Shown piece after piece: positions 5,149 to 54,122 of a stretch of 63,418 nucleotides of DNA. Within the stretch, counting starts at the first letter, position 1; each line of letters opens with the position of its first letter. Below the pieces are notes generated by a model, which did not search any database, was not told where the DNA came from, and worked only from the letters and a program-made list of their open reading frames with translations. Source of the DNA: an uncultured Bacteroidales bacterium (GTDB taxonomy: Bacteria > Bacteroidota > Bacteroidia > Bacteroidales > Muribaculaceae); contig CACYVC010000026.1 of assembly GCA_902777835.1 (NCBI GenBank), positions 1 through 63,418 of the forward strand, written 5' to 3'. Both the position numbers and the translations under genes were made by a program.

Positions 5149-5190
5149 TTAAGTGTTAAGTGTTAAGTAGTAAGTTGTAAGTGTTAGGTA
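5149..5190 (+). repeat. 7-bp tandem array, TTAAGTG family (6 units)
   Basis: Units run in strict 7-bp phase: TTAAGTG, TTAAGTG, TTAAGTA, GTAAGTT, GTAAGTG, TTAGGTA. The array starts 5 bp after the stop codon of the esterase gene. Confidence 0.85.
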
Positions 5191-5229
5191 ATATGAGTCC
5201 TTATTATTCCTTACACTCCTTTTGATTAA

Positions 5230-6588
5230 ATGAACAGTCCAGCGCAGCATGCAAAATTTGTGAAGTTGACAACCCAGCCAGTAGGCAGGTTGGTAACTGG
5301 GCTTGCTGTGCCTGCTATGGTGAGCATGCTCGTGACGGGTATCTACAACCTGGTTGACACCTTCTTCGTTGGGCAAATCAACACGCAGAGCGTGGCGGCG
5401 CTGGGCATCGTGTTCTCCTATATGTCGATAGTGCAGAGCATCGCTTTCTTCTTTGGGCAGGGTGCGGGCAACTACATCTCCCGCATGCTCGGCCATGAGG
5501 ACAGCCACAACGCAGGCATCATGGCATCGGTGGGCCTGGTGTCGACATGGCTCACGGGCGCTGTGATTGCGACCATCGGCTTTGTGTTTATGCAGCCAGT
5601 GTTGCGCTTCTTTGGCTCAACCGAAACTATTCTGCCTTACGCTTGCGACTATTTCACATTCATACTGCTGGGCACGCCGTTCATCATGAGCTGTTTCACG
5701 CTCAACAACTTGATGCGTCATCAGGGCAACGCCATGCTCTCGATGCTCGGCATCATGACGGGCGCAGCGCTCAACGTGATTCTCGACCCAATCTTCATCT
5801 TTGGCTTAGGCCTTGGCGTGAAAGGCGCGGGCATGGCAACGGCGCTGTCGCAGGTGGTGAGCTTCACCATCATGCTCATGCTCTCAGGCAAGAGGGGAGG
5901 GGTGCCAATACGTCTCTCGCAGTTCAAACCCACGATGCAGCGTTACCGCGACATAGCGGCAGGAGGTCTGCCATCGCTGGCACGACAGTCGATGATGGGC
6001 ATCGCCGCTCTCATCCTCAACCATGTGGCGGGACTCTATGGCGACTCGGCGATTGCTAGCTTCTCGGTTGTGAGCCGCATCACTATGCTTGCCAGCGCTG
6101 CGATGATAGGTTACGGACAAGGCTTCCAGCCGGTGTGCGGCTTCAATTATGGTGCGGGCAAGTTCGACCGTGTGCGAGCCGCCTTCATCCACAGCTGCAA
6201 AGTCTCGACAATCTACTGCACGGTCCTTGCAGTGGCGGGGTTCATCTTTGCGAGGGAACTAGTGTCGCTCTTTGTCGAGAGCGACCCCGAGGTGAGCCGC
6301 ATAGGCACCGAGGTGCTCCGTTTCCAGTGCCTTTCGTTCCCGCTCACGGGTTTTGTGGTGATGGTGAACATGTACCTGCAGAACATCCGCCGCACCGTGC
6401 CTGCCGTCATCATAGCTATGGCACGACAGGGCATATTCCTTATCCCTGCTCTGTTCTTGGGTAATTGGCTGCTTGGCTTCCTTGGTGTGGAGATCGCCCA
6501 AGCAGTAGCCGACACCGCCTCGTTCCTACTCGCCATCCCCTTAGGCATCAAGACCTTAAACCGAATGGGAAAATCAATTAATGCATAA
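5230..6588 (+). CDS. MATE family efflux transporter
   Basis: A 452-residue, very hydrophobic protein with about twelve transmembrane segments, the usual size for MATE antiporters. The start (LTTQPVGRLVTGLAVPAMVS, then NLVDTFFVGQI) is the family's N-terminal hallmark, and the second half repeats the pattern (GGLPSLARQS, GYGQGFQPVCGFNYGA). Such proteins export drugs or metabolites by Na+ or H+ exchange at the inner membrane. The last codons (INA then TAA) are made of the first unit of the following 7-bp array. Confidence 0.93.
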   Translation: MNSPAQHAKFVKLTTQPVGRLVTGLAVPAMVSMLVTGIYNLVDTFFVGQINTQSVAALGIVFSYMSIVQSIAFFFGQGAGNYISRMLGHEDSHNAGIMASVGLVSTWLTGAVIATIGFVFMQPVLRFFGSTETILPYACDYFTFILLGTPFIMSCFTLNNLMRHQGNAMLSMLGIMTGAALNVILDPIFIFGLGLGVKGAGMATALSQVVSFTIMLMLSGKRGGVPIRLSQFKPTMQRYRDIAAGGLPSLARQSMMGIAALILNHVAGLYGDSAIASFSVVSRITMLASAAMIGYGQGFQPVCGFNYGAGKFDRVRAAFIHSCKVSTIYCTVLAVAGFIFARELVSLFVESDPEVSRIGTEVLRFQCLSFPLTGFVVMVNMYLQNIRRTVPAVIIAMARQGIFLIPALFLGNWLLGFLGVEIAQAVADTASFLLAIPLGIKTLNRMGKSINA

Positions 6589-6656
6589 TGCACAATTCAC
6601 AATGCACAATTCATAATGCACAATTCATAATGCACAATTCATAATGCACAATTCAT
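6580..6656 (+). repeat. 7-bp tandem array, AATGCAC/AATTCAT family (11 units)
   Basis: Eleven consecutive 7-bp units, mostly alternating AATGCAC and AATTCAT. The stop codon of the MATE gene (6586-6588) lies inside the first two units. Confidence 0.9.
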
Positions 6657-6659
6657 AAT

Positions 6660-6701
6660 CTCTCACCTCTCCACTCTCCCCTCTCCCCTCTCCCCTCTAA
6701 C
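6660..6701 (+). repeat. 7-bp tandem array, CTCTCCC family (6 units)
   Basis: CTCTCAC, CTCTCCA, CTCTCCC three times, CTCTAAC. It follows the AATGCAC array almost directly, with the same 7-bp period but an unrelated unit. Confidence 0.85.
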
Positions 6702-6714
6702 CTGGGCTAAACGC

Positions 6715-8033: not shown

Positions 8034-8099
8034 GCTATAAAGAGATTACTAGAAAACAAGATGATAAGAAAACAAGAAAACAAGAGAACGAGAGGACAA

Positions 8100-8134
8100 C
8101 TCTCAACTGTGAACTCTTAACTCTTAACTCCTGC
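8100..8134 (+). repeat. 7-bp tandem array, CTCTTAA/CTGTGAA family (5 units)
   Basis: CTCTCAA, CTGTGAA, CTCTTAA, CTCTTAA, CTCCTGC. It ends 2 bp from the stop codon of the minus-strand SufT-like gene (8137). Just before it (8050-8099) there is an irregular purine-rich repeat of AAAACAAG type. Confidence 0.8.
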
Positions 8135-8136: not shown

Positions 8137-8463
8137 TCAATCCATGTCAAAGCCGAGCTCTAGTTTTGCCTCGTCGCTCATCATGCGCACGTCCCATTCG
8201 GGCTCATACACCAGGTTGACGGTGCACGAGTTGATGCCGTCGATGCTCTCCACCTTCTGGCGCACGTCCTCAAAGATGAAATCGGCCATCGGGCAGTTAG
8301 GGGCGGTGAGCGTCATGTCGATTACCACGTTGCCGTCATCCTGAAGGTCAATCTTATAGACCAACCCTAGGCTATAGACGTCAACTGGTATCTCAGGGTC
8401 AAACACCGTCTTGAGCATCATTATGATCTGCTCTTCAAGCTTAAGTTTCTGTTCTTGTTCCAT
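8137..8463 (-). CDS. SufT/MIP18-family (DUF59) iron-sulfur assembly protein
   Basis: A 108-residue protein that is almost entirely one MIP18/DUF59 domain: DPEIPVDVYSLGLVYKI near residues 22-38 and LTAPNCPMAD near 62-71, with the conserved Cys in APNCP. Members help mature Fe-S proteins; this stand-alone form matches SufT-like proteins of Bacteroidetes. No suf genes adjoin. The gene sits between a large 7-bp array (5' side) and another array (3' side). Confidence 0.88.
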   Translation of the reverse strand: MEQEQKLKLEEQIIMMLKTVFDPEIPVDVYSLGLVYKIDLQDDGNVVIDMTLTAPNCPMADFIFEDVRQKVESIDGINSCTVNLVYEPEWDVRMMSDEAKLELGFDMD

Positions 8464-8465
8464 AT

Positions 8466-8727
8466 GTGGTTGTTCGTTTATCGTTTTTCGTTTATCGTTG
8501 TTCGTTTTTCGTTTATCGTTGTTTCGTTTATCGTTGTTCGTTTATCGTTGGTCGTTTATCGTTGTTTCGTTTATCGTTGTTTCGTTTATCGTTGTTCGTT
8601 TATCGTTTATCGTTTATCGTTTATCGTTTATCGTTGGTCGTTTATCGTTGTTTCGTTTATCGTTGTTTCGTTTATCGTTGTTCGTTTATCGTTGTTCGTT
8701 CATTGTTATTCGTTTATCGTTGATCGG
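8466..8727 (+). repeat. Large 7-bp tandem array, GTTTATC/GTTGTTC family
   Basis: About 260 bp made of GTTTATC units alternating with GTTGTTC, GTTGTTTC or GTTGGTC, including five consecutive GTTTATC copies near 8599-8633. An extra T in some units gives local 8-bp steps. The plus strand has no stop codon in any frame over most of the array, producing long but meaningless open frames. It begins 2 bp upstream of the SufT-like start codon. Confidence 0.9.
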
Positions 8728-8738
8728 GAGCCGGGAAT

Positions 8739-8832
8739 TGATAACTGGAAACTGATAACTGATAACTGTGAACTATGAACTATGAACTGTGAACTATGAA
8801 CTGTGAACTGTGAACTGTGAACTATGAACTTC
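8739..8832 (+). repeat. 7-bp tandem array, CTGATAA/CTATGAA/CTGTGAA family (13 units)
   Basis: Thirteen units in 7-bp phase that drift from CTGATAA through CTGTGAA to CTATGAA. A short inverted block (CAGTTAT twice, 8873-8887) follows about 40 bp later, next to the stop codon of the phosphatase gene at 8911, so the two could pair. Confidence 0.88.
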
Positions 8833-8910
8833 TTTTAAATGCTTTGCGCCTGCAAAAGTAGTAATTAGTTTTCAGTTATCAGTTATCGGCAACCAGTTTT
8901 TTGTGCTACA

Positions 8911-9653: not shown

Positions 9654-9787
9654 AAAGATTTTTCCCAAATCACGATATTTTTATCCAGAGAAAAAGCATC
9701 AGCTTATTATGAGAATTATGGAGCTATGTTTATCAAACAACCAAAACAACAAATCCACAAATTTTATCCTTTAACTAACCATTATTC

Positions 9788-9817
9788 TTGCACTCTGAAA
9801 AAAAATCACTATCTTTG
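9788..9817 (+). promoter_or_regulatory. Sigma-ABfr promoter at the left edge of the restriction island
   Basis: TTG (9788-9790) and TATCTTTG (9810-9817) are 19 bp apart, a near-ideal Bacteroidetes promoter. Predicted transcription start is around 9822-9825, some 320 nt before the first gene. Confidence 0.7.
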
Positions 9818-9823
9818 TAACCA

Positions 9824-10126
9824 AACTTTCAGCAATCGACCGCAGAGGCGGCAACCACATAGCTGAAAGCTGACATATTAAAAAGCGTATATTGACGCTT
9901 TGTTCTTTGGCTTCTAAAGAACTAGCTACTCTTTATAAGAAACAGTCGAAGACATGGCAACAATAGACGCTCCAAGGTATGTTTATTCATCTCTGTGCCA
10001 TTATTGGCGCAGTGTGTGATTGCATATCTGCGTGAGGTCTATGTTGCTCGTCTTACTGTTTCGGGCAAGTAGCTAGGCCTTTTAGAAGCGGGACGAGTCA
10101 ACAATATAGACTCTCACGCTTTTTTT
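9824..10126 (+). ncRNA. Putative structured RNA (about 300 nt) ending in an intrinsic terminator
   Basis: Seen directly: a promoter just upstream, then five hairpins and a terminator. Stems are 9826-9833/9862-9869 (8 bp, enclosing CCGC/GCGG at 9840-9851), 9882-9888/9895-9901 (7 bp), 9902-9908/9916-9922 (7 bp), 9993-10000/10005-10012 (8 bp, one G-T), and a long stem of about 23 pairs from 10030-10052 to 10092-10119 with small bulges. Seven T residues follow (10120-10126). It lacks the conserved sequences of tmRNA, RNase P RNA and SRP RNA as I know them. It could be an independent small RNA or a leader that attenuates the Mod-Res operon, which starts 19-58 bp later. Identity unknown. Confidence 0.65.
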
Positions 10127-10183
10127 GACACCTTAATTTGTGATATGGTTCTTTTGAGGGTCAGGACCTTACTTGACCATTGC

Positions 10184-12055
10184 ATGGACCGACAGAAACT
10201 TATAGAGAAAATTCGCCAACTTGAAGGATTGACCGATGATGAGCGGTCGGCACTGCTTGAGCTTGCAAACACTCAAAAGTCTTATGGCCTAGTGTGGGAA
10301 TACAAGCCCGAAGATGTGGAGGAACGACTGCGTGATAACCTGCCAGTGCTTACCGAGGTAAAAGAACGTGCAATAATCAGTGATAACCCCGATGCTCCCA
10401 ATCACATCCTTATTGAGGGCGACAACCTTGAAGCACTAACTGCACTTGCATATACTCATGCTGGAAAAATTGACGTAATTTATATAGACCCTCCTTATAA
10501 TACGGGAAAGAAAGATGAGTTCAAATACAATGATCATTGGGTAGATTCTGAAGATAGTTATAGGCATTCTAAATGGTTGTCTTTTATAGACAAACGAATT
10601 AAATTTGCCAAACTGTTATTAAAAGATGACGGTTTATTATTTATTTCAATTGATGACAATGAAATAGCTCATCTTAAGTTGATTTGTGATGAATATTTCT
10701 GTCACAATAGCAATCCAAAAGAATCAAATTGTTTAGGTATATTAATATGGGATTTAGGTTCTGGTACATCTGCAGGTCATTTTACTAGAGCACATGAATA
10801 TATTCTTTGTTATTGCAAAAATAAAAAACAATTACCTAATTTTTCAGGAGGTGACGGTGTTATTGATGATAGAGCAATTAAAAAGAAATCCTCTAAGAAT
10901 GCTGAATCGGAATATTTATTTAAAAAAGGAACCAAATTTGAAGCAGAGGATGGATTTGAATTATTTGGAGAATGGGGCGGTTCTGAGAAAACTAGATTAA
11001 TTTCTGGAAGAATGATTTGTCAAAATGGGAAATTGGCAGAGGATGTTATTCTATCATCTTGTTGGACTCAAAGAGACCAAATGGAGTCTTTCTTCTCTGG
11101 AGTGGACACTATCGATTCTAAAGGTCAGCATGTTATTGAGTTTTATTTTAGAGATAATGGCAAGTTATATTATAGAAAGGATAGAAGTAAGATTAATCCA
11201 CCAACGGTCTTAAGAGATATTGCTACTACTAAGCAAGGTTCAAAAGTAATAAAAGAAATTTTTGATAATGAGGAACCCATTAAATTTGCGAAACCAATTA
11301 ATTTAATCTCATTTCTTTTATCACTTAAAGGGAATAATTCCACCGTACTTGACTTCTTCGCAGGCAGCGGCACTACTATGCATGCAGTAATGCAGCTTAA
11401 TGCTGAGGACGGTGGGCATCGTCAATGCATTTTGGTTACCAATAATGAGAACGGCATCTGTGAGAATGTGACATACGAACGCAATAAGCGTGTGATTAAT
11501 GGCTACACCAAGCCTAATGGTCAAGCAGTGGAAGGATTGCATGACAACACGCTTCGCTATTACCGCACAGAGCTGATGAGCCGTGACCGCACGAGTGCTA
11601 ACAAACAAAGCCTTGTTCATCTTGCAACCGACCTGCTGTGCATAAAAGAGGACCTTCACGACGAACACCAGCTAATGATAAACGGCAAGAAACTCCGCCG
11701 GCAGTATGCGCGCTTTTTTGCAAAGGACGACCGCAACATGATAGTCATTTATGACCCTGCAGTGATAAAATATGTTGTGGAGTCGATAAAAGAGGAAGAG
11801 CCACCGCGCCCCGTGAAAGTGTATGTGTTCAGTGACGGTCGCTATGCCTTTGACGACGACTTTGCTGCAGTAATAGACAAGGTGGAATTATGCGCCCTGC
11901 CCGATGCCATCTATGAGGCTTATAGCGCAGTGTTGCCCCCTCGCAAAGATAAAAACGTGGTGCCAGCCGATTATGACAAAGAAGATGCCAAGGTTGAGCT
12001 TGCTCAAGCCGATAGCAGTTCATATAAATCAACAGAAAACGACAACCAGCTATGA
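10184..12055 (+). CDS. mod: Type III restriction-modification DNA methyltransferase (Mod)
   Basis: About 623 residues. DPPYNTG near residue 102 is catalytic motif IV of adenine-N6 methyltransferases. DFFAGSGTTMHAV near residue 389 is the SAM-binding motif I. This order (IV before I) defines the beta class to which type III Mod subunits belong. The region between them, about 10500-11340, is the target-recognition part and is markedly more AT-rich than either flank, as if exchanged. I chose the ATG at 10184 because MDRQKLIEKIRQLEGL matches usual Mod N-termini; an ATG at 10145 would add 13 unconserved residues. Mod methylates one strand of an asymmetric site and gives specificity to the Res partner, whose gene overlaps by 4 bp. 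Confidence 0.92.
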   Translation: MDRQKLIEKIRQLEGLTDDERSALLELANTQKSYGLVWEYKPEDVEERLRDNLPVLTEVKERAIISDNPDAPNHILIEGDNLEALTALAYTHAGKIDVIYIDPPYNTGKKDEFKYNDHWVDSEDSYRHSKWLSFIDKRIKFAKLLLKDDGLLFISIDDNEIAHLKLICDEYFCHNSNPKESNCLGILIWDLGSGTSAGHFTRAHEYILCYCKNKKQLPNFSGGDGVIDDRAIKKKSSKNAESEYLFKKGTKFEAEDGFELFGEWGGSEKTRLISGRMICQNGKLAEDVILSSCWTQRDQMESFFSGVDTIDSKGQHVIEFYFRDNGKLYYRKDRSKINPPTVLRDIATTKQGSKVIKEIFDNEEPIKFAKPINLISFLLSLKGNNSTVLDFFAGSGTTMHAVMQLNAEDGGHRQCILVTNNENGICENVTYERNKRVINGYTKPNGQAVEGLHDNTLRYYRTELMSRDRTSANKQSLVHLATDLLCIKEDLHDEHQLMINGKKLRRQYARFFAKDDRNMIVIYDPAVIKYVVESIKEEEPPRPVKVYVFSDGRYAFDDDFAAVIDKVELCALPDAIYEAYSAVLPPRKDKNVVPADYDKEDAKVELAQADSSSYKSTENDNQL

Positions 12056-14415
12056 TACAACTCAAGGACTATCAGCGCAAGGCAGTGAATGAGCTAAAGA
12101 CCAAACTCATTGACATGCTCAACATTCCCGACGAGGACAGGCAGAAACTTGTTTTCAAAGCCCCCACAGGCAGTGGCAAAACCGTTATGGCCAGTGCCAT
12201 GCTCGACGAGTTGACACAAGAGCTGCAAGTGGGCAGCGAGTGCCTATACTCAAGAGTGGCATGGGTGTGGATAGCTCCCAACAAGCTACACCAGCAGAGC
12301 TACCTCTCGATGCGCAATTTCTTTAGCGAGACTCGCGCCTTGAGGCCTGTGATGTTTGACGAATGCGACCACCTCGAAGGTCTAAAGCCCGGCGAAGTGC
12401 TGTTCCTTAACTGGGAAAGCGTGAACAAAGACAATGCAGTGATGATTCGTGACAACGAGCAGAACCGCACCCTTCATGAGCTGCTAAGAAAAACACGCAT
12501 CATCCAAAAGATGCCCATTGTGGTGATCATTGACGAGGAGCACATGTTTGGTGGCAGAAACGCCGTCAAGAGTGAGCAGTTGCTCCAGAGCATCAACCCA
12601 AAGATTGAAGTGCGCATCTCTGCAACCCCAGTGACACAATCATTCCAAGTGGTAGAGGTGAAACGAAACAGAGTTATCGCCGAGGAAATGATTAAAAAGG
12701 GCGTGCAGCTCAATCCCAACATTCGTTCGGACAACGAGCAACAAGAGCTCACGGTGAATCAGCGACTGCTAGTAAAAGCCTTGAAAAAGCGAGACGAGCT
12801 GGCTAAAATATATGCACAACATGGCATCAACCCGCTGCTGCTCATCCAACTGCCAAACGACACCAGCGACACACTCTCGCAAGAGGAACGCACAATAGCC
12901 GAGGAGATAGAGAACTACCTGAGCACAATGTGCGACATCAGCGTGGAGAATGGCAGGCTAGCAGTGTGGCTCAGCAAGAACAAGTCGCCCAACCTGGACA
13001 CCATCACCAAGAAAGACGACATGTGCCAGGTGCTGCTGTTCAAGCAGGCCATCGCACTGGGTTGGGACTGCCCAAGAGCTACAGTGCTGCTTATCTTCCG
13101 CAAGTTGCAAAGCGTGACATTCACTACCCAGACGGTGGGTCGCATCCTGCGCATGCCCGAGCAACACTTCTATCAAGATGAGAGATTGAACTATGGCTAT
13201 GTGTATACCAACCTATCGGAAGACATCATTGAGATTGTGGGCGATGACATGAGCTACTTGAGCTCGGTGTATGGCAACATGCGCAAGGACCTGAACAACA
13301 TCTCGCTTCGCTCGGTGTTTCAGGACACTAGAGGAAAGCGTAATCGCTTGGGAGCAGACTTCAGAAACGTTTTTCTTCAAGTGATGAAAGAAACATGGGA
13401 GCAACAGCCACAATCACTGTTTGGAAATGATGACTTCTTTGATGACGATGATGATAACAAGAAAGAAAGCAGCATCGCTAATGTTGAAGATATAATTACA
13501 AAAAACCGACTCAACGCCAAAAATCACGGAGTGAGAACCGATGTGTCGCGCGTGATGATTGCCATACCCAAGAACACCCCCATCACTGGAGAGGGAGGCA
13601 TTGTGAAAATTAATGAAAAAGCACGGTTGGCACTTAATGCTACAGAATTAGATTCATTATTCAACATGTTCTGCCGCAAGAATGTGGGAAATTTTGCAAA
13701 AGTGGATAGTACACCAGTGCTGAAAGGTGCTATAGAAAACGCGCTGGAGCAATACCTGCAAATCTTTGCTACCGATGTTCCCAAAGTGGTTCTTTATCAT
13801 GGCAATAGGGCACATTTCGAAGACTTGATTAATAAAGCCGTGACTCGATATTCCAACATGCTGAAGATTGAGATTGCCAATCAAGCAGGTCAAGATATAC
13901 AATACAAGATTTCGCATTGGCAGGTTCCTGAAACCCGTTTATATAACTCGGCTATGTATGTCAATCAAGACACTAAAATATTCAATCATGCCATAAAACC
14001 ATTCTTTGAATCAAAGCGAGTTTCAGCACCAGAATATCATTTTGCACGATGGATTGACAAGCAGAACGAGGTGATAGACTGGTGGTACAAGAATGGCGAT
14101 GAGGGCAAGCAGCACTTTGCTGTTCCTTACAACGACATTAACGGAAAGCCACGTAGCTTCTATGTGGATTTCATCATAAGGCTGAAAAACGGAAAGGTGT
14201 GCCTCTTTGACACCAAAACTGTGGGAAGCGACGAAAATGGCGCTTTAAAGAATAATGCATTATATAAATATGTCAAAGAATACAATGAGATGGGCATGCC
14301 CATAACAGGAGGCGTGATAATAGGCTATGGTGATAACTGGTATTACCCTGACGGCATTGTAGAAAACATCGACAATGTGGAAGGCTGGACAAAACTCGAT
14401 TTTAATAACCTTTAA
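12052..14415 (+). CDS. res: Type III restriction enzyme helicase-nuclease subunit (Res-like)
   Basis: A 787-residue DEAD/DEAH-box (SF2) ATPase. Q-motif-like start QLKDYQRKAV, Walker A APTGSGKT at residues 37-44, Walker B IIDEEH near 160, motif III ISATP near 190, and motif VI-like TVGRILRMPEQ near 360. The C-terminus carries a likely PD-(D/E)xK nuclease: YVDFIIRLKNGKVCLFDTKT near residues 704-722. It cuts unmodified DNA after ATP-dependent communication between sites when bound to Mod. Shorter than classical Res (about 970 aa). It overlaps mod by ATGA, so translation is coupled. Confidence 0.88.
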   Translation: MIQLKDYQRKAVNELKTKLIDMLNIPDEDRQKLVFKAPTGSGKTVMASAMLDELTQELQVGSECLYSRVAWVWIAPNKLHQQSYLSMRNFFSETRALRPVMFDECDHLEGLKPGEVLFLNWESVNKDNAVMIRDNEQNRTLHELLRKTRIIQKMPIVVIIDEEHMFGGRNAVKSEQLLQSINPKIEVRISATPVTQSFQVVEVKRNRVIAEEMIKKGVQLNPNIRSDNEQQELTVNQRLLVKALKKRDELAKIYAQHGINPLLLIQLPNDTSDTLSQEERTIAEEIENYLSTMCDISVENGRLAVWLSKNKSPNLDTITKKDDMCQVLLFKQAIALGWDCPRATVLLIFRKLQSVTFTTQTVGRILRMPEQHFYQDERLNYGYVYTNLSEDIIEIVGDDMSYLSSVYGNMRKDLNNISLRSVFQDTRGKRNRLGADFRNVFLQVMKETWEQQPQSLFGNDDFFDDDDDNKKESSIANVEDIITKNRLNAKNHGVRTDVSRVMIAIPKNTPITGEGGIVKINEKARLALNATELDSLFNMFCRKNVGNFAKVDSTPVLKGAIENALEQYLQIFATDVPKVVLYHGNRAHFEDLINKAVTRYSNMLKIEIANQAGQDIQYKISHWQVPETRLYNSAMYVNQDTKIFNHAIKPFFESKRVSAPEYHFARWIDKQNEVIDWWYKNGDEGKQHFAVPYNDINGKPRSFYVDFIIRLKNGKVCLFDTKTVGSDENGALKNNALYKYVKEYNEMGMPITGGVIIGYGDNWYYPDGIVENIDNVEGWTKLDFNNL

Positions 14416-14426
14416 ATAAGATATTT

Positions 14427-14636
14427 ATGGCAAAAGGACTTGACAGCACATTCCTCCATTATGGAGTGAGAAATGACGACATGGAAATAATAGAACAATC
14501 ATGCCGTGAAAATGAAATTGACCCTGAATGGATTAAAGAACATTTCTTGAAAGTGTATAACGCTCGACGCAACGAGGGAGAGTTGAATGACAAAGCGATA
14601 AATAAAATAGTAAAGAAGGCTATCAAACAAATATAA
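14427..14636 (+). CDS. Small protein of the restriction island (DNA-modification-system-associated type)
   Basis: A 69-residue, mainly helical, charged protein: LDSTFLHYGVRNDDMEIIEQ at the start and a basic tail (KIVKKAIKQI). From memory it resembles short proteins found next to DndD-like ATPases and named DNA-modification-system-associated small protein. It lies 11 bp after res and 2 bp before the SMC-like gene, so it is certainly part of the operon. Its role is unknown; an adaptor between the Mod-Res pair and the ATPases is an inference. Confidence 0.7.
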   Translation: MAKGLDSTFLHYGVRNDDMEIIEQSCRENEIDPEWIKEHFLKVYNARRNEGELNDKAINKIVKKAIKQI

Positions 14637-14638
14637 CT

Positions 14639-16654: not shown

Positions 16655-16659
16655 ACGAT

Positions 16660-18258: not shown

Positions 18259-18265
18259 TAATATC

Positions 18266-18883: not shown

Positions 18884-19204
18884 TTGGCTAGAAGAAATAT
18901 TGATTTCGTTTTTGAAAATCTCACAAAGCTGCACCTCTAAGGGTGAGAAAGCACAGAAGAGCTCAAAAGAACAGAATTTATGTTCTTATGTCCCACCAAG
19001 TGGGTGGGTTATGTCCTTCTGTCTAAACAAGAAGAGTAGTCAAAGGAGATTCGTGGCATTCGCAAGATTCTCAGTTTTATTCAAAAAGTGTCCCACACTA
19101 CTTGTAGGTCCGTTCCTCGTTCCACCTTCCTCGTTCCACAAAAAAATGGTCCTTCTGTCTAAACAAGTGTGGGCCCATTCCACCTTCCACGTTCCACTTT
19201 CCAC
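18884..19204. other. Non-coding right edge of the restriction island
   Basis: No gene. It holds a hairpin around 18990-19008 (CCACC and GGTGG arms), a 19-bp perfect direct repeat (GTCCTTCTGTCTAAACAAG at 19013-19031 and 19149-19167), and two short 7-bp arrays of GTTCCAC/CTTCCAC type (about 19111-19138 and 19177-19204). Confidence 0.6.
19111..19204 (+). repeat. Two short 7-bp arrays, GTTCCAC/CTTCCAC family
   Basis: Four units lie near 19111-19138 (GTTCCTC, GTTCCAC, CTTCCTC, GTTCCAC) and four near 19177-19204 (ATTCCAC, CTTCCAC, GTTCCAC, TTTCCAC). Each is followed by a run of seven A residues and ATGG, so the segment itself looks duplicated. Confidence 0.75.
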
Positions 19205-21796: not shown

Positions 21797-21886
21797 GGAA
21801 GGTGGAAGGTGGAAAGTGGAAAGTGGAAAGTGGAAAGTGGAAGGTGGAAGGCTTTATCGTTCCACATTCCTCGTCCCTCGTTCCAC
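21797..21886 (+). repeat. 7-bp arrays in inverted orientation, GGAAAGT family
   Basis: Eight units of GGAAGGT/GGAAAGT (21797-21852) are followed, 6 bp later, by four units of the complementary type (GTTCCAC, ATTCCTC, GTCCCTC, GTTCCAC, 21859-21886). The arms could form a hairpin. The right arm ends 6 bp from the LysO stop codon at 21893. Confidence 0.85.
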
Positions 21887-22871: not shown

Positions 22872-23264
22872 ATGTCTATGGAAACAAGAAAACACTTAGC
22901 GGCCGAGAGAAAGAAAACGTGTAATTGCGCTCAGGCGGTGATCGCCACCTACGCTGACCTCGCGGGCATCGACGAGGAGACGGCGATGGCGCTGGGCAAC
23001 GCCTTCGGCAGCGGCATGGGTAACATGGAAGGCACCTGCGGTGCGCTCACTGGAGCAGCAATGGTAGTGGGCCTTGCTACCCGCGACAAACTCCGCTCTC
23101 GCCAAGTGATGAGCAAGATAATGAACGAGTTTCATGCGCGCAACGGCGCTACGCAGTGCAAGTTGCTAAAAGGAGTAGGCACAGGCAAAGTGCTTCGCTC
23201 CTGTGAGGGCTGCGTGGCCGACGCCAGCGAGCTGCTCGAAAAAGAACTCTTTGACAATGCATAA
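22872..23264 (+). CDS. C_GCAxxG_C_C family redox protein
   Basis: A 130-residue protein showing the pattern that names the family: CNCAQAV near residue 17, GTCGALTGA near 57-65, TQCKLL near 97 and SCEGCV near 114-119. These Cys residues are thought to bind a cofactor or act in redox chemistry; the exact reaction is not established. The last codons (NA then TAA) are part of the first unit of the following 7-bp array, as in the MATE gene. Confidence 0.85.
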   Translation: MSMETRKHLAAERKKTCNCAQAVIATYADLAGIDEETAMALGNAFGSGMGNMEGTCGALTGAAMVVGLATRDKLRSRQVMSKIMNEFHARNGATQCKLLKGVGTGKVLRSCEGCVADASELLEKELFDNA

Positions 23265-23400
23265 TTGGTAATGCATAATGCATAATGCACAATGCACAAT
23301 GCATAATTGGCAATGCATAATGCACAATTGGCAATGCACAATGCTCAATGCATAATTGGCAATGCATAATGCATAATGCACAATTCATAATTGATAATGC
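23256..23400 (+). repeat. 7-bp tandem array, AATGCAC/AATTGGC family (about 20 units)
   Basis: Twenty full units in uninterrupted 7-bp phase, mixing AATGCAT, AATGCAC, AATTGGC and AATTCAT. The stop codon of the preceding gene (23262-23264) lies inside it. Confidence 0.92.
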
Positions 23401-23484
23401 TTACTGTCGAGTGCCGCGCTTGTGGCGCAATATAAAACCATCTCTGTTATTGGCTTTTTTGGGCGGTTGTGCTTGAGCATAGCC

Positions 23485-23624
23485 GATTCCCGATTCCCGA
23501 TCTCCGATCCACCTTCCCCGTTCCACGTTCCCCGTTCCACTTTCCACGTTCCCCGTTCCACGTTCCCCGTTCCCCGTTCCACCTTCCACCTTCCACTTTC
23601 CACCTTCCACGTTCCACCTTCCAC
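23485..23624 (+). repeat. 7-bp tandem array, GTTCCAC/GTTCCCC/CTTCCAC family (20 units)
   Basis: Twenty consecutive units in strict phase, starting as GATTCCC and drifting to GTTCCCC, GTTCCAC and CTTCCAC. Confidence 0.92.
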
Positions 23625-29712: not shown

Positions 29713-30336
29713 ATGCACATCGTCATAGCCGGAAATATAGGTTCAGGAAAGTCAACGCTCACGCGCTTGCTGGCGCAGCACTATGGCTGGACTCCCCGCT
29801 ATGAGAGTGTGGCCCACAATCCCTATCTCGAAGATTATTACCACGACATCCAGCGGTGGTCGTTCAACCTTGAGGTGTATTTCCTCAAGGAGCGCTTCCG
29901 TGACCTCTTGGCAATATCTCAGGCCCAAGGCACCATCCTTCAGGACCGCTCGATCTTTGAGGGCGTGTATGTGTTTGTTGCCAACAACCGCGCTATGGGC
30001 AACATCTCGGAGCGTGATTTTGCCACCTATATGGAGCTTTTTGAGCACATGCTCTCAATCGTGAAGCTGCCCGACCTGATGATCTATCTGCGCTCGTCGG
30101 TAGAACATCTGGTGGCAAATATCCAGAAACGAGGCCGCGACTATGAGCAGACGATGCAGATTGAATATCTCGACAACCTCAACCGCCGCTACGAGGACTT
30201 CATAAACAACCACTACAAAGGTCGTGTGATGATTGTCGATAAAGATAACCTCGACTTCGAGAACCGCCGAGAAGACTTCATTGGCATCACCAATCGCATC
30301 GACAGCATCCTCTACGGACTGTTCCCGATGGAATAG
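29713..30336 (+). CDS. Deoxynucleoside kinase (first of a tandem pair)
   Basis: A 207-residue P-loop kinase of the dCK/dGK family: GNIGSGKSTLT at residues 6-16, the base-contact region NPYLEDYYHD, the catalytic DRSIFEG near 76 and the lid LRSSVEHLVANIQKRGRDYE near 121-140. It phosphorylates deoxynucleosides (dA, dG or dC) for salvage. A close homologue follows directly, as in the dak/dgk pairs of other bacteria, so the two may differ in base preference or form a heterodimer. Confidence 0.9.
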   Translation: MHIVIAGNIGSGKSTLTRLLAQHYGWTPRYESVAHNPYLEDYYHDIQRWSFNLEVYFLKERFRDLLAISQAQGTILQDRSIFEGVYVFVANNRAMGNISERDFATYMELFEHMLSIVKLPDLMIYLRSSVEHLVANIQKRGRDYEQTMQIEYLDNLNRRYEDFINNHYKGRVMIVDKDNLDFENRREDFIGITNRIDSILYGLFPME

Positions 30337-30432
30337 GGGAGAGGGAAGAGGTGAGAGGGGAGAGACGCCCCCAGCACCGTAGGTGCCACGCTTAACACTT
30401 AACACTTAAAACTTAACACTTAAAACTTACAT
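30337..30432 (+). repeat. Two 7-bp arrays between the kinase genes (GGGAGAG and CTTAACA families)
   Basis: Four units GGGAGAG, GGAAGAG, GTGAGAG, GGGAGAG start at the base after the stop codon (30337-30364). Six units CTTAACA/CTTAAAA follow at 30391-30432, ending 4 bp before the next ATG. Confidence 0.85.
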
Positions 30433-31063: not shown

Positions 31064-31128
31064 GTGGAACGTGGAATGTAGAACGTGGAACGAGAACATC
31101 CTTCCACTTTCCCCTTTCCTCCTTTCAC
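31064..31128 (+). repeat. 7-bp arrays in inverted orientation, GTGGAAC family
   Basis: Five units (GTGGAAC, GTGGAAT, GTAGAAC, GTGGAAC, GAGAACA) and then four units of the complementary type (CTTCCAC, TTTCCCC, TTTCCTC, CTTTCAC). It starts 6 bp after the kinase stop codon. Confidence 0.85.
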
Positions 31129-39882: not shown

Positions 39883-39890
39883 TGCTAACT

Positions 39891-40017
39891 AAGTGTTAAG
39901 TGTTAAGTGTCAAGTGTTAAGTGCTAAGTGTTAAGTGTTAAGTGCAGGTGTATAAACCTCAAGATTTTCAAGGAAAATCATACTTAAAACTTAACACTTA
40001 TGACTCAACACTTAATT
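39891..40017 (+). repeat. 7-bp arrays in inverted orientation, AAGTGTT family
   Basis: Eight units AAGTGTT/AAGTGCT (39891-39946) and, 36 bp later, five complementary units (CTTAAAA, CTTAACA, CTTATGA, CTCAACA, CTTAATT; 39983-40017). The right arm overlaps the lspA stop codon and its last codons. Confidence 0.88.
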
Positions 40018-41064: not shown

Positions 41065-41070
41065 AATATA

Positions 41071-41195
41071 TAGTTCATAGTTAATAGTTCATAGTTCACA
41101 GTTCGCGGTTCACAGTTCGTGGCTCTGCCACTACACTCTAAACTTAGGCGAAGCCAAGTGACACTTAACACTTAACACTTAACACTTGTGACTTA
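41071..41195 (+). repeat. Two 7-bp arrays between ileS and the DksA-like gene
   Basis: Seven units TAGTTCA/CAGTTCG (41071-41119) just upstream of the DksA-like start, and five units ACACTTA (41161-41195) ending 1 bp from the ileS stop codon. They belong to two different families. Confidence 0.85.
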
Positions 41196-44100: not shown

Positions 44101-44691
44101 TTGGTTGAGCTCGTGAGAGCTGAGGCCTGTGCCAGCAGCTGGCGAGTAAGGTTGGATGGTGTAGCCCTTGTAGAGCAGACCCTTGTTGTAGAGCTGCTTC
44201 AAGAGATACCACAAAGACTCTATGTAGCTGTTCTTGTAAGTGATATACGGGTTTTTCATGTCAACCCAGTATCCCATCTTGTGAGTGAGGTCTTCCCACT
44301 CCTTGGTATATTTCATCACCTCCTTGCGGCAGGTGGCATTATATTCATCAACACTAACCTTCTTGCCAATGTCCTCTTTGGTGATGCCAAGAGATTTCTC
44401 CACGGCGAGTTCCACTGGCAGTCCGTGTGTGTCCCAGCCTGCTTTGCGCAGCACTTGATGACCTTGCATAGTCTTGAATCGGCACACCACATCCTTGATG
44501 GTTCGTGCCATCACATGGTGAATACCTGGCATGCCGTTGGCGCTAGGAGGTCCTTCATAAAAGACAAAAGCTGGAGCGCCCTCGCGTTCCTCAATGCTTT
44601 TGTGGAACACATTCTCTTCGTCCCATTTCTTCAGGACTTCCTTGTTGATGTCCGAAAGATTGAACTTGTTGTATTCGTTAAATTTCTTCAT
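41197..44691 (-). CDS. ileS: Isoleucine-tRNA ligase
   Basis: A 1164-residue class I aminoacyl-tRNA synthetase, the length of the eukaryote-like IleS type. The HIGH-equivalent motif is PSANGMPGIHH near residues 50-60 and KMSKR lies in NGNKMSKRLGN near 680. The editing domain and the anticodon-binding helices (WYVRLNRHRFW) are present. It charges tRNA-Ile in the cytoplasm. Its start overlaps the end of the upstream membrane-protein gene by 14 bp. Confidence 0.97.
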   Translation of the reverse strand: MKKFNEYNKFNLSDINKEVLKKWDEENVFHKSIEEREGAPAFVFYEGPPSANGMPGIHHVMARTIKDVVCRFKTMQGHQVLRKAGWDTHGLPVELAVEKSLGITKEDIGKKVSVDEYNATCRKEVMKYTKEWEDLTHKMGYWVDMKNPYITYKNSYIESLWYLLKQLYNKGLLYKGYTIQPYSPAAGTGLSSHELNQPGCYRDVKDQTVTAEFTVVDNGHKALEAIKAAADEKFRDNLRILAWTTTPWTLPSNTALCVGQKIDYVAIESYNPYNGNPAIYLMAKARVNAYFKPEGAEKSLDEYTTGDKVIPYKVIAEFKGSDLLDIKYKQLFPWVKPVDKIDDKIVGNDNGFRVIPGDYVTTDDGTGIVHIAPTFGADDAFVAHAAGIPALYMINKKLETRPMVDLTGKYYNIEDLDEDFVKNFVNVELYKEYAGAWVKNAYDPKFTVDGKYDEEAASKAEDLNIYMCIRMKQEGTAFKIEKHVHNYPHCWRTDKPVLYYPLDSWFIRSTACKDRMVALNKTIKWKPEHTGTGRFGKWLENLNDWNLSRSRYWGTPLPIWRSEDGEEKCIGGIEELYNEIEKSVAAGIMGGNPLKDKGFVPGDYSEENYDKIDIHRPYVDYITLVSDTGKPMKRELDLIDVWFDSGAMPYAQLHYPFENKDLVDERKFYPADFIAEGVDQTRGWFFTLHAIGTMVFDSVAYKCVVSNGLVQDKNGNKMSKRLGNAVDPFNAIEKYGSDPLRWYMISNSAPWENLKFDTAGVEETSRKFFGTLYNTYSFFAQYANVDNFDPSAPQVPLEKRPEIDRWIISLLNTLIKDVTEQFNDYEPTRAARAISDFVGENLSNWYVRLNRHRFWAGEMTENKLAAYQTLYQCLETVARLMAPVAPFYSDMLYRDLTGSEKSVHLAFYPTVCEEIIDNELEHRMDIAQKETSMVLALRRKKNIKVRQPLTEIMIPVSDEKQRADIEAVSDLITSEVNVKGIKFVGNDEGILVKKVKPDFKKLGPKYGKIMKALAAQLTTLPQADILKLEQEGSIKLNVDGQEAVVDLNDVEIISEDIPGWLVANEGNLTVALDITITDELRREGMARELVNRIQNVRKSSGFEITDKINVVIAPDERINQTVAEFHDYIAGQVQAVSLAVGEVPADAIELDMDGWTLKIKVDKA

Positions 44692-45321: not shown

Positions 45322-45414
45322 TGGAAGGTGGAAAGTGGAACGTTGGTTGCATCAGTTCAACTATTTTGCAATTTACTAACTATGAACTCTGAACTATAAA
45401 CTATAAACTATGAA
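45322..45414 (+). repeat. 7-bp arrays near the ATPase stop codon (GGAAAGT and CTATGAA families)
   Basis: Three units GGAAGGT, GGAAAGT, GGAACGT lie near 45322-45342; five units CTATGAA, CTCTGAA, CTATAAA, CTATAAA, CTATGAA lie at 45380-45414. The stop codon of the minus-strand ATPase gene (45408-45410) is inside the last unit. Confidence 0.82.
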
Positions 45415-46157
45415 CCAGTAGATAGCCCTAATTGCTTTAAATAAAGTTCGCGGTTGAGGATGAAGTTGTGTAGGTCACGATAGACACTGCAATCGTCGTA
45501 GGTCTTGTGATGAATATATCCGTCTTCTATCTCATAGATGCAGGCATCGGGGTAGGAGAGAACCACTGGCGAGTGGGTAGAGATAATGATTTGGGCGCCT
45601 TGTTGCACGACTTCTTTTATCCAACACAAGAAGGCGAGCTGATTTACGAAAGAGAGTGCTGCTTCGGGTTCATCAAAGATGTAGATGCCCTTGCCTTGCA
45701 AGCGGTTTTGAATCAAAGCTATAAAGCCTTCGCCATGCGAGCGTTCATGGATGCTCTTGCCGCCGTAGTAAGCTATATATCCTGGGTCGATATGTGCGAG
45801 GCGGTCAATTTCCGAAATTACGTTGTAATAACTCTCGGCACGGAAGAAGAAAGTGTCCTCAAACGATAGGCTGGCCATACCTTTGCCTAGTTCTTCCCAT
45901 AGCGATGAGTGGGAATCTACTGTGCGAAAGTTGAAGTTGCGTGTGCCGCCCTCGGGATTCATGCCCAGCAGTACGGCAATAGCCTCAAGCAATGTGGATT
46001 TTCCTGAGCCGTTTGGTCCAACGATGTATGTAACTGACTTCTTGAAAATAAGTTCTTTGAAGTTGGCGATAACTGGAATCGAAAAAGGATATTGCTCATG
46101 TGCCTGCCCCTCGTGCTTGTTAAAGATGCGATTGAGATAGATGTTTTCTTTTCCCAT
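45408..46157 (-). CDS. AAA-family ATPase (stand-alone, RecF/ABC-like)
   Basis: A 249-residue ATPase: Walker A IVGPNGSGKSTLLEAIAVLL near residues 42-61, Walker B GIYIFDEPEAALS near 157 and a switch-like IIISTHSPVV near 192. This is the compact predicted-ATPase family that resembles ABC heads and stand-alone OLD/RecF-like ATPases, without coiled coil or nuclease domain. Targets are unknown. It stands alone between the ileS operon and an AraC regulator. Confidence 0.82.
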   Translation of the reverse strand: MGKENIYLNRIFNKHEGQAHEQYPFSIPVIANFKELIFKKSVTYIVGPNGSGKSTLLEAIAVLLGMNPEGGTRNFNFRTVDSHSSLWEELGKGMASLSFEDTFFFRAESYYNVISEIDRLAHIDPGYIAYYGGKSIHERSHGEGFIALIQNRLQGKGIYIFDEPEAALSFVNQLAFLCWIKEVVQQGAQIIISTHSPVVLSYPDACIYEIEDGYIHHKTYDDCSVYRDLHNFILNRELYLKQLGLSTGS

Positions 46158-52050: not shown

Positions 52051-52125
52051 AATCGTCTATTTTTTTATTTTATAACGCATTAAGTTTCTCCAAATTATAT
52101 GTGGAACCAAAAATGTGCTCTCAAG

Positions 52126-52157
52126 GTTGCAGAATCGTGAGATTTTCACTATATTTG
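52126..52157 (+). promoter_or_regulatory. Sigma-ABfr promoter of the acyl-CoA synthetase gene
   Basis: GTTG (52126-52129) and TATATTTG (52150-52157) are 20 bp apart, 21 bp before the ATG. Confidence 0.7.
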
Positions 52158-52178
52158 CACGATTAAATCAAAATAACT

Positions 52179-54044
52179 ATGCAAAACGAATTTGTGAGCC
52201 TGATTAGCAATCAGGCAAAGAAATATGGAAACCGCGAGGCATTGCGTTACCGTGACTATCTTTCGGACCAGTGGACATCGATGTCATGGAAAAGTTTCAA
52301 GCAAGACATAGAGCGGTGCGCTCATGCTTTGCTGCATGCTGGCGTGGAGCCACAGGGCAAGGTGGCTGTGTTCTCGCAAAACTGCCCCGAGATATTAATA
52401 ACGCATTTCGCATCGTTCTACAACTGCGCTGTGCCGGTGCCTATCTATGCTACTAGCAGCAAGGACGAGGCGGCCTATATCATCAACGATTCAGGAGCAA
52501 CTATCTTAATGGTGGGTGGACAAGAGCAATATGACATCGCCATGCAGCTATTTGATGAATGTCCTTGCCTCAAACTTGTTGTTGTGATGAATACCAAGGT
52601 CGTGGTTGATAAGCAGATGAAGAATGTAACTACTTGGCGTCGCTTCCTCAGCGAAGGTGGCCAAGCAGGCGAATTAGAGCGTAGCGCGCTTGCCAAGCGC
52701 ATGGAAGATGGCCGTCCCGACGACTTGATGTATCTTATCTACACCTCGGGCACCACAGGTCAGCCCAAGGGTGTGATGCTTACCCACAGCAACTTCAGTG
52801 CGGCAATGATGGCGCACGGCATGCGACTAACCTATGTTGACGACAACGATGTGTCTCTCAGTTTCTTGCCATTGAGCCATATTTTTGAGTTGGGTTGGAC
52901 TATGTTCTGCCTCATTCATGGTTTGGTGGTCGCCATCAATTATGACCCTCGAGACATTCAGCGCTCCGTCAAGGAGATAAACCCCAACTGCATGTGTAGC
53001 GTGCCCAGATTCTGGGAGAAAGTATATACTGCAATCATGGACAACGTGAACGGTGCAAAACCAGTGGTCAAGACAATGTTTAAGACAGCTATACGTGTGG
53101 GTAAGGCGCGCAACATCAAATATGTGCGCAACGGCAAGAAGGCGCCATATCTCATTGAGAAGCAATATCAATATTTTGAGAAAAAGGTGTATTCACGCCT
53201 GCGCAAAGCGATTGGTGTGGAAAACGGAAAACTCTTCCCCACTGCTGGTGCCATGCTTAGCGACAATATCACCGCACTGCTTCATGCCGTGGGCATCAAC
53301 ATCGTGATAGGCTATGGTCTGAGCGAGACCAACGCTTCGGTGTGCTTTTATCCTAATCAAGGTTGGGAGCTTGGCACCATTGGCGAACCCATCCCTGGTG
53401 TAAAGTTGAAAATTGGCGACCAGAACGAGATTCTCGTTAAAGGTCCAACCGTGATGCGCGGTTACTATAACAAGCCCGAAGAAACCGCTCAGGCTATTGA
53501 TGCTGACGGATGGTTCCATACTGGCGACTGCGGCGAAATAACCGAGAAGGGACACCTCATTATGACCGAGCGTCTAAAGGATCTCTACAAGACCAGCAAT
53601 GGCAAGTATATCGCTCCCCAGCAGCTTGAGACGTTGCTCGCTCAGGATAAATATATGGCTCAAGTGGCAGTGATTGGCGACGGAAAGAAATATGTGAGCG
53701 CACTTATTGTGCCTGACTTCGACGAACTTGGAATATGGGCTGCCAAGCACAAAATCAAGTTTAAGAACAACGAGGAGCTGGTCAATGACCCCAAGGTTCA
53801 TGAGATGATAGAGAAACTCATCAACGAGTATCAGAAGGATCTTGCCAGCTATGAACAGATAAAGCGCTTTGTGCTCCTGCCCCGACCTTTCACTATGGAA
53901 AGCGGCGAACTTACCAACACTCTGAAAATCAGGCGTGCCGTTGTCAATAAACGCTATGCCAAGTTGATTGACGCGATGTATGCCGTTGATTATCGCCCCA
54001 AAGGCAAGAAAGAAGAAAAACTGAATGTCGAATTTGTTTTTTAA
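52179..54044 (+). CDS. Long-chain fatty acid-CoA ligase (AMP-binding)
   Basis: A 621-residue adenylate-forming enzyme. The P-loop LIYTSGTTGQPKGVM lies near residue 187, the A5 motif GYGLSETNASV near 380 and the A7 motif DGWFHTGDCGEI near 445. LKTSNGKYIAPQQLE-type sequence (KTSNGKYIAP) near 472 is the FadD-like linker. It activates fatty acids with ATP and CoA, for lipid recycling or breakdown. Confidence 0.92.
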   Translation: MQNEFVSLISNQAKKYGNREALRYRDYLSDQWTSMSWKSFKQDIERCAHALLHAGVEPQGKVAVFSQNCPEILITHFASFYNCAVPVPIYATSSKDEAAYIINDSGATILMVGGQEQYDIAMQLFDECPCLKLVVVMNTKVVVDKQMKNVTTWRRFLSEGGQAGELERSALAKRMEDGRPDDLMYLIYTSGTTGQPKGVMLTHSNFSAAMMAHGMRLTYVDDNDVSLSFLPLSHIFELGWTMFCLIHGLVVAINYDPRDIQRSVKEINPNCMCSVPRFWEKVYTAIMDNVNGAKPVVKTMFKTAIRVGKARNIKYVRNGKKAPYLIEKQYQYFEKKVYSRLRKAIGVENGKLFPTAGAMLSDNITALLHAVGINIVIGYGLSETNASVCFYPNQGWELGTIGEPIPGVKLKIGDQNEILVKGPTVMRGYYNKPEETAQAIDADGWFHTGDCGEITEKGHLIMTERLKDLYKTSNGKYIAPQQLETLLAQDKYMAQVAVIGDGKKYVSALIVPDFDELGIWAAKHKIKFKNNEELVNDPKVHEMIEKLINEYQKDLASYEQIKRFVLLPRPFTMESGELTNTLKIRRAVVNKRYAKLIDAMYAVDYRPKGKKEEKLNVEFVF

Positions 54045-54094
54045 GGAACAATTCACACTTTATATATTTTGAAAATCTAGAACTTCTAGAAAAA

Positions 54095-54122
54095 CTCTAA
54101 ACTCTTCCCTCTCTCCTCCCAA
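54095..54122 (+). repeat. Short 7-bp array, CTCTAAA/CTCTTCC type (4 units)
   Basis: CTCTAAA, CTCTTCC, CTCTCTC, CTCCCAA in 7-bp phase between the ligase gene and prfB. Confidence 0.55.

Follow-up and report, generated by a model that had tools for sequence, protein, structure and literature searches.

Intergenic arrays of seven-base repeats in a Bacteroidales genome appear to belong to elements built around genes of the PF05635 family. The window analyzed here is a 63,418-nucleotide stretch of DNA from an uncultured bacterium of the Muribaculaceae (assembly GCA_902777835.1, contig CACYVC010000026.1, positions 1 to 63,418; contig C26 of genome G000 in our numbering). Its draft genome has 2.89 Mb in 52 contigs and is 90% complete. 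PF05635 proteins are four-helix-bundle (fhb) proteins annotated as "23S rRNA intervening-sequence protein" (23S_rRNA_IVP, S23p). We lean, slightly beyond even, toward an explanation in which elements made by or for these proteins supply the arrays, both as their arms and as copies scattered in the genome, with a protein ring setting the step from unit to unit. A full element would lie between two genes and consist of an fhb gene with an array arm on either side, the 3' arm being the reverse complement of the 5' arm. At the RNA level the two arms would base-pair, leaving the fhb frame in the loop of a stem like that of 23S rRNA intervening sequences, and a pentameric ring would read about one core per subunit, giving a step of 7 (8 in some fhb clades). 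Such elements would be mobile. Gene-less derivatives and single arrays would be scattered in the same genome, the single arrays being decayed or gene-less derivatives acted on in trans. The window would hold only these scattered forms, and a profile search of contig C26 returned no PF05635 gene.

Mirror-image arrays around PF05635 genes

One junction that is free of arrays in our own genome holds, in the relative G001, a 123-codon PF05635 gene between AATGCAC and GCATTGT arrays. Because this gene lay between arrays, we tested fhb loci for arms in general. Genes for fhb proteins are present in 25 of 31 genomes in a search of relatives and in 300 of 392 in a search of the phylum, our own genome included; matches over the Pfam gathering cut-off occur in 24 of 31 and 285 of 392. 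The solved chain nearest to the G001 protein is 2RLD (E = 5e-33), an entry listed with 5 chains. A PF05635 protein from Xanthomonas is reported to be a homopentamer of four-helix bundles (Lin 2006, in PMC4990558).

Arms were scored by local alignment of the upstream flank against the reverse complement of the downstream flank. Controls within Bacteroidales came from one genome, our own, with genes called by a simple codon-usage script. These controls, like the gap and orientation counts below, pool loci L001-L020, which were picked near AACTATG matches and are biased, with L021-L040, which were not so picked. The fhb counts for arms and core runs (sets of 58, 118 and 64 loci) include orthologous loci. 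At 12 of 30 fhb loci, period-7 arrays upstream and downstream of the gene had three or more inverted heptamers in common, which was the case for 1 of 540 own-genome genes. The smaller arm set comprised 60 loci, in two of which no open reading frame (ORF) was found. An arm score of at least 20 was reached at 23 of the remaining 58 fhb loci, 8 of 542 own-genome genes and none of 92 genes of 80-200 aa. Arms exceeded shuffled flanks at 38 of 58 fhb loci (20 shuffles), compared to 85 of 542 and 14 of 92 genes (10 shuffles). A larger set of 136 loci was reduced to 118 after 18 were dropped (L216 and L335 are a single place); 83 of these exceeded all 50 shuffles, and 60 scored at least 20. The 5' arm contains more G than C in 34 of 38 fhb loci, which is the polarity of AGTT and AAGT arrays after stop codons.

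The same arrangement is found on plasmids. A protein search returned 31 plasmid records with fhb genes, 15 of them from Nostoc, the genes being identified through tblastn and record annotation. We inspected 12 records (nine from cyanobacteria, one each from Bernardetia, Treponema and Chlorohelix), and the arms exceeded 20 shuffles in 11. The twelfth, the Treponema plasmid, was scored on the wrong reading frame and has period-7 arrays on both sides of its fhb gene. The arm units differ among plasmids and include CAATTCG, CAAGTCG, GATTTAC, TAATTCG, ATTAGTG and GTCGGAA. Genes for fhb proteins between such arrays were seen on plasmids of Nostoc, Planktothrix, Dolichospermum and Anabaena. Across two 50-kb stretches of Nostoc plasmids, both fhb genes scored at least 20 (28 and 29), compared to none of 79 other genes.

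On the plasmids, each of the 12 annotated fhb genes has protein-coding genes as neighbors on both sides and none lies within a 23S rRNA gene; the other loci, in the part of them inspected, were judged intergenic from the surrounding reading frames. By eye, many elements directly abut the stop codon of the gene upstream and the start codon of the gene downstream. Arm sequences differ between fhb elements, unlike the terminal inverted repeats of a transposon, which are conserved between copies. In the window, the gene at 22872-23264 was considered as an fhb gene and rejected, being a member of PF09719.

Several fhb genes sit among defense or methylase genes: between drmD and pglX at L252, between cas2 and cas1 at L258 (fhb on the opposite strand), and between a helicase and an N6 methylase gene at L260. 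On a Nostoc plasmid (L251 / L423:24101-25568), fhb is followed by xisH and xisI. The distributions of TAACTGA repeats and of XisH/XisI have been reported to be similar (MacGregor 2015, PMC4679880).

One junction, L325, was compared in five species. In G001, an fhb gene lies there between AGTT arms. The arms in G000 and G011 consist of CGTTTAT units and enclose a short loop with no fhb gene, G010 has a CTAG array with a step of 9, and G433 has a different hairpin-like sequence. The RNA of the G011 junction folds into one long stem (z -3.3), with 2 of 200 shuffles equally stable. Since arms or hairpins of differing sequence occupy the same junction, pairable structure tends to persist there while the sequence is replaced and the gene is optional. 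At L321 (gap 509-621) and L323 (gap 531-668) the loop seems, by eye, to be inverted between G000 and G011, as if mirror arms had recombined. In G433 (G433:C12:14239-16827, L330), the genes that flank fhb in G000, G001 and G011 adjoin in a different relative orientation.

Step length and core number in fhb arms

Among the 83 armed loci, the step is 7 at 49, 8 at 11, and 9 and 11 at one each. We placed step labels on a quick tree of 62 fhb rows chosen for a clear step of 7 or 8. The label changes twice on this tree; in 200 shuffles the mean was 10.3 changes and the minimum 7. Host genus g22 contributes seven rows with step 8 and five with step 7, and these separate in a single split by fhb clade. 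The rows with step 8 represent several loci in three host families (f1, f19 and f37). On this tree, the step tracks fhb clade and not host genus. The median arm is longer at step 8 (40 nt) than at step 7 (33 nt), as would be expected if it is the number of cores that is counted and not the number of nucleotides. Related fhb proteins also carry similar units at different sites: proteins at least 60% identical have a unit similarity of 0.615 (42 pairs), compared to 0.47-0.48 for others. Over all pairs, unit and fhb similarity correlate with rho 0.12, a value equalled in 5 of 300 shuffles.

We then counted cores. The longest run of a single dinucleotide in the 5' arm, read at the arm's own step, is five in 35 of 64 loci, four in 5 and more in 24. 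Runs of five make up 27 of 52 arms at step 7 and 8 of 12 at step 8. A control read at the wrong step never gave a run above four in 320 trials. In our own genome, exact runs of four, five and six number 8, 25 and 5 for AACT, 4, 12 and 2 for AAGT, and 1, 6 and 1 for AACG. The five-core peak is thus confined to three core families in our own genome and to dinucleotide runs within the arms of fhb loci, and it is suggestive given the reported pentamer.

Arrays of the window and of related genomes

Arrays in the window were found with a lag-match scan by period at a segment score of at least 12, with a stricter set at 14, and Tandem Repeats Finder reports the same arrays. Period 7 accounts for 22 segments in 13 clusters between 5149 and 45415; an earlier note on this DNA, made from the sequence alone, had counted about twenty arrays. 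Periods 6, 8 and 12 have one segment each, periods 2-5, 9-11 and 13 have none, and period 14, a multiple of 7, has 18. At a score of at least 14, period 7 retains 17 segments and periods 6, 8 and 12 one each. A Markov-resampled copy of 437 kb contained no array at any period from 1 to 30. In 400 kb of our own genome chosen regardless of repeats, 31 arrays have period 7, none has periods 2-6 or 8, two have period 9 and three have period 12; this genome-wide excess is the one that the earlier note had proposed to look for. The heptamer arrays of the window are real and far beyond chance. An assembly artefact is unlikely as their source because the period-7 property recurs across many separate assemblies.

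The other claims of the earlier note fared unevenly. It had extended the arrays to 54122, and the last one ends at 45415: no period-7 array of at least 12 was found from there to 54122 (54041-54262 was also read), the top later segments scoring 8.5 and 10.5. It had given all arrays a period of 7. Period 7 is dominant, not exclusive, as the window also contains a period-6 array (40016-40051) and a period-8 array (8051-8099; AGAAAACA), and a CTAG family has period 9. Its intergenic placement holds for most arrays, with 5 of 124 centered inside a called gene and many touching a stop or start codon. The unit families it named are present, and units diverge while the phase is held, as it had described. 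Its word "unrelated" is too simple for the six units, given that several have the same core and spacer design, that the AGTT, AAGT and AACG families share an orientation rule and that one unit is found at dozens of loci. The unit of the period-8 array is a rotation of the step-8 arm unit at the G011 fhb locus L194.

In many arrays inspected, the units consist of a short fixed core and a freer spacer. AACT is invariant in 13 of 13 units of 8743-8830 while the remaining three columns vary, TCGTT is invariant in 10 of 10 units of 8582-8649, and in 23483-23624 two columns only are held constant. With a core at fixed spacing and a freer spacer, the sequence can change by drift or replacement without loss of the spacing. 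In 837 kb of our own sequence, the cores most often found 7 bp apart include AACT, AAGT, TTCC, AACG, AGAG and their complements. Different unit families succeed each other in phase (for example, 6579-6698), and superperiods of 14, 21 and 86 bp are present. The 124 arrays collapse to 35 units, the two top units cover 37 arrays, and one unit is found again at dozens of loci in our own genome. The TCGTTTA/TCGTTGT family of 8474..8726 also forms the arms of our own genome's PF05635 gene at G000:C3 (the arms of L218/L329). The gap 8464-8910, which holds the AACTGAT array, contains an inverted partner (score 22 versus 11 for shuffles).

Orientation was counted on the sense strand, within 15 bp after stop codons, once 74 gaps had been read. 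After stops, AGTT outnumbers AACT by 26 to 2 and AAGT outnumbers ACTT by 11 to 1. Before starts, AACT outnumbers AGTT by 11 to 0, ACTT outnumbers AAGT by 8 to 0 and AACG outnumbers CGTT by 5 to 0. The AGTT, AAGT and AACG families follow a common orientation rule at gene edges. Arrays also crowd these edges: 70 of 112 lie at most 10 bp from a coding edge, compared to 38.6 expected by random placement in the same gaps. A Rfam scan of the window gave no match at the gathering score.

Table 1. Heptamer arrays of the window, listed without strand by position; (-) after a gene denotes the reverse strand
Unit	Position	Context
TTAAGTG	5149..5190	6 bp past stop of gene 3806-5143; AATGCAT array at the same junction in G010
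AATGCAC/AATTCAT, in phase into CTCTCCC	6579..6698	overlaps stop codon of 5230-6588
AACTCTT	8097..8130	beside stop codon of 8137-8463(-)
TCGTTTA/TCGTTGT, ~35 units	8474..8726	TCGTT core invariant in 8582-8649
AACTGAT/AACTGTG/AACTATG	8735..8887	AACT invariant in 13/13 units of 8743-8830
TTCCACC	19178..19204	
GGAAAGT/GGAAGGT	21797..21851	between convergent genes; other arrays there in G001, none marked in G010
AATGCAT	23256..23400	overlaps stop codon of 22872-23264
CCGATTC, in phase into TTCCACG/TTCCCCG	23483..23624	core less fixed
AGGGGAG	30335..30364	begins at stop codon of 29686-30336; a like unit forms the arms of L198
CTTAACA	30388..30429	directly upstream of start codon of 30437-31057
GTGGAAC	31064..31092	directly past stop codon of 30437-31057
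TAAGTGT	39890..39944	left arm of mirror-image pair
ACTTAAC	39982..40015	right arm, paired with 39890-39944; top inverted score of the gap 25 versus 9 for shuffles
ATAGTTC	41070..41118	adjoins start of gene 40678-41064(-); junction without it in G001, G010 and G011
ACACTTA	41161..41187	directly past stop of isoleucyl-tRNA synthetase (IleRS) gene 41197-44691(-); not in G001, G010 and G011
AACTATG	45378..45415	overlaps stop codon of 45408-46157(-)

We compared junctions gap by gap with G001, G010 and G011. Among the gaps listed (of 32), the relatives often lack the array or have a different unit. The junction after the stop at 5143 carries TTAAGTG in the window and AATGCAT in G010, and the arrays beside IleRS are missing from all three relatives. 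A CTAG core at 9-bp spacing with a free spacer forms a second intergenic periodic family. Its core count is 22 in our own sample on both strands, with sites at L001-L040 and in the window (for example, L322 near 498-553, L326 near 561-716 and window 54075-54095), and it replaces heptamer arms at two G010 junctions.

Array density varies among relatives. In 264 kb of G001 there are 32 period-7 arrays, and no other period between 2 and 12 exceeds 4; 37 loci of more distant named metagenome-assembled genomes have 36 period-7 arrays with at most 6 at other periods. Of the relatives, which the earlier note had proposed to check, G001 shows the excess, and in some samples it is weak. Two genomes of the same genus, G012 (96% complete) and G013 (83% complete), have no PF05635 match, and we found no period-7 array in the 209 and 80 kb sampled from them. 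The density of our own genome (31 in 400 kb; G001 has 27 in 220 kb) predicts about 22 arrays in these samples. G014 (66% complete) has no PF05635 match over the cut-off and three four-core AACT matches. Six fhb-less genomes of other families had no array in 120 kb.

Two features of the window are separate from the heptamers. The region at about 9716-19238 contains N6/N4 DNA methylase and ResIII helicase genes of restriction-like character; no aligned counterpart is listed in G001, where the flanking matches lie about 180 bp apart. Both flanks of the gene at 11797-14661 (L007) carry a copy of one ~110-bp palindrome-like sequence that is unrelated to the heptamers.

Competing explanations and relation to known elements

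Reports of heptamer arrays in bacteria go back decades (reviewed in PMC4679880 and PMC4692102), and we know of no accepted cause for them. One explanation is that the length of DNA held by the polymerase favors replication slippage by 7 nt, with neutral arrays accumulating where frameshifts are harmless (Mrazek 2007 in PMC4679880, PMC4692102). Heptanucleotides are reported to be the most abundant category of long repeats in most genomes (Mrazek 2007, cited in PMC4679880; PMC4692102), and the indels between two Cyanothece strains are mostly 7 nt (MacGregor 2015, PMC4679880). The arrays studied here lie mostly outside genes, as slippage would have it. Slippage probably still acts on them, because the 14-, 21- and 86-bp superperiods suggest that several units were duplicated at once. 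However, slippage alone gives neither a step that follows fhb clade, a constant core, an orientation rule nor arms. Step 8 occurs alongside step 7 within one host genus, where it goes with another clade of fhb proteins, and samples of two same-genus genomes without fhb contain no arrays. Variation spares the core columns (AACT in 13 of 13 units, more weakly in 23483-23624), 124 arrays reduce to 35 units with 37 arrays in the top two, orientation is tied to gene edges in three families, and complementary arms surround fhb genes. We consider slippage an unlikely explanation on its own. The earlier note had likewise argued against random slippage, which it expected to give mixed periods, and the present data include evidence for a protein-linked cause.

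A second explanation is that gene junctions are under selection to carry RNA hairpins or insulators. The fhb genes would then be cargo that settles in the hairpin loops, much as it does in helices of 23S rRNA, with the arrays serving as cheap stems. The L325 junction is in keeping with this, as its arms surround either fhb or an empty loop and pairing is kept in most of the five species despite the change of unit; the G011 stem with its z of -3.3 and the crowding of arrays at coding edges (70 of 112 versus 38.6 expected) also fit. However, most gaps hold a single array (18 of 87 are paired), ordinary hairpins need no 7-nt step, and the step by fhb clade is left unexplained, making this explanation improbable. 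Sites for a host chromosomal or regulatory protein unrelated to fhb, with one subunit per 7 bp, would suit the fixed core and freer spacer, the vocabulary common to many loci and the edge and orientation rules, but are very improbable because they leave unexplained both why arms of differing units accompany PF05635 genes in several phyla and why arrays are absent from samples of fhb-less relatives.

A number of observations weigh against the explanation based on PF05635 elements. No arms beyond shuffles were found at 35 of 118 fhb loci, and 21 of 83 armed loci show no clear step. Two of 50,697 phage records contain fhb, neither with arms. At two junctions inspected by eye, where array edges blur the ends, there was no visible target-site duplication. 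On the fhb tree, L195 (step 7) sits within the step-8 clade at an open fork, 22 of 58 inner branches are open, and orthologous loci may share a step simply because they inherited it. Of 87 array-bearing gaps in our own sample, 18 have an inverted partner that exceeds 10 shuffles, so most arrays look single. The orientation rule was not seen for GGAA (2 versus 2 after stops), for GAGA (2 versus 1 after stops, 1 versus 0 before starts) or for AACG/CGTT after stops (1 versus 0). Among 15 closer named loci there are 5 arrays of period 7 and 3 each of periods 9 and 10; the 95 kb of 16 IleRS loci from the same genus contain a single period-7 array, compared to three at period 9 and two at period 12. 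AACT arrays were not found in G003 and G016, both of which contain fhb. In 40 kb from two fhb-rich genomes of other families there was likewise no array, so the comparison across other families says little.

The same caution applies to core number. Trinucleotide runs in fhb arms have a mode of four, not five, and AG is among the best cores in 25 of 64 arms. GGAA runs of four, five and six number 7, 2 and 1, and neither GGAA nor AATG has a five-core peak. AACT runs were surveyed in 28 of 41 genomes, the other 13 having 0 to 5 four-core AACT matches each. Runs of five exceed runs of four in 7 of the 28 genomes of the genus (549 versus 765 in total), and pooled four-letter runs have no peak at five in G001 or in the samples of relatives. 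Since the peak fails to generalize, we regard one core per fhb subunit as a tentative analogy that is probably not correct as it stands. We rejected AG as a universal core (25 of 64 arms), five cores as a general rule (7 of 28 genomes and a trinucleotide mode of four) and the idea that arrays are always hairpin pairs (a partner in 18 of 87 gaps).

The model for core reading is borrowed from the trp RNA-binding attenuation protein (TRAP), a toroid that reads evenly spaced short cores, one per subunit. TRAP has eleven subunits and steps of ~5 nt, compared to five subunits and a step of 7 or 8 for the putative fhb ring. By this analogy, PF05635 pentamers might be TRAP-like rings that read one core per subunit on RNA or single-stranded DNA, with ring geometry setting the 7- or 8-nt step. 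Protein, arms and scattered arrays might then be parts of a single system, selfish or regulatory, and this system might account for the heptamer arrays of cyanobacteria, Beggiatoaceae and Bacteroidota. We hold this extended proposal to be conceivable and rather doubtful.

We know of no PF05635 protein that acts as a transposase. In REPIN and RAYT systems, inverted repeats flank a protein gene, and gene-less hairpins are dispersed between genes of the same genome. Unlike in those systems, with which we compared our elements (PMC3116915), the units here are tandem arrays that differ between elements. Intervening sequences of 23S rRNA with an S23p ORF have complementary ends around the ORF, replace a hairpin loop and occur sporadically, and their transposition or mobility has been discussed (PMC4990558). 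Our fhb elements likewise have complementary ends around a PF05635 ORF; they differ in lying between protein genes where inspected, in their stepped-array arms and in their many ORF-less copies. The Avd protein of diversity-generating retroelements resembles PF05635 in sequence and structure and is essential to retrohoming (PMC10053308).

Much of the groundwork is already in print. TAACTGA arrays are described from Beggiatoaceae, cyanobacteria and five Bacteroidetes, and some of the gaps that hold them also contain other heptamers (MacGregor 2015, PMC4679880). Heptamer arrays as such are not new; the earlier note had known of no description of several heptamer families in one Bacteroidales genome. 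TAACTGA is itself a rotation of the window unit TGATAAC. Nostoc is among the genera with reported heptamer repeats (PMC4692102, PMC4679880), and S1, cold-shock and CsrA proteins have been named as candidate TAACTGA binders (MacGregor, PMC4679880). The published short tandemly repeated repetitive (STRR) and TAACTGA arrays resemble those of the window in being heptamers between genes, with many before a start codon and several in some gaps (PMC4679880, PMC4692102, PMC4853749), and the arrays here are, like STRR heptamers, tandem 7-bp units between genes in many copies per genome. Published reports thus cover heptamer repeats in general, their predominance over repeats of other lengths and their occurrence in a few Bacteroidetes (PMC4679880, PMC4692102), as well as intervening-sequence elements with S23p (PMC4990558). 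The parts of the STRR and TAACTGA reports covered here do not name PF05635, genes of which we find between such arrays. No link between heptamer arrays and PF05635 was found among the literature matches listed, which is weak evidence given that most subscription journals lie outside their coverage.

If the explanation based on PF05635 elements is correct, the question of why the repeats are seven bases long and the question of what PF05635 proteins do would merge into one that can be tested. Intervening sequences of rRNA and intergenic heptamer arrays would then be one kind of element. The explanation would also offer a reason for the presence of PF05635 genes between defense genes such as drmD and pglX or cas2 and cas1.

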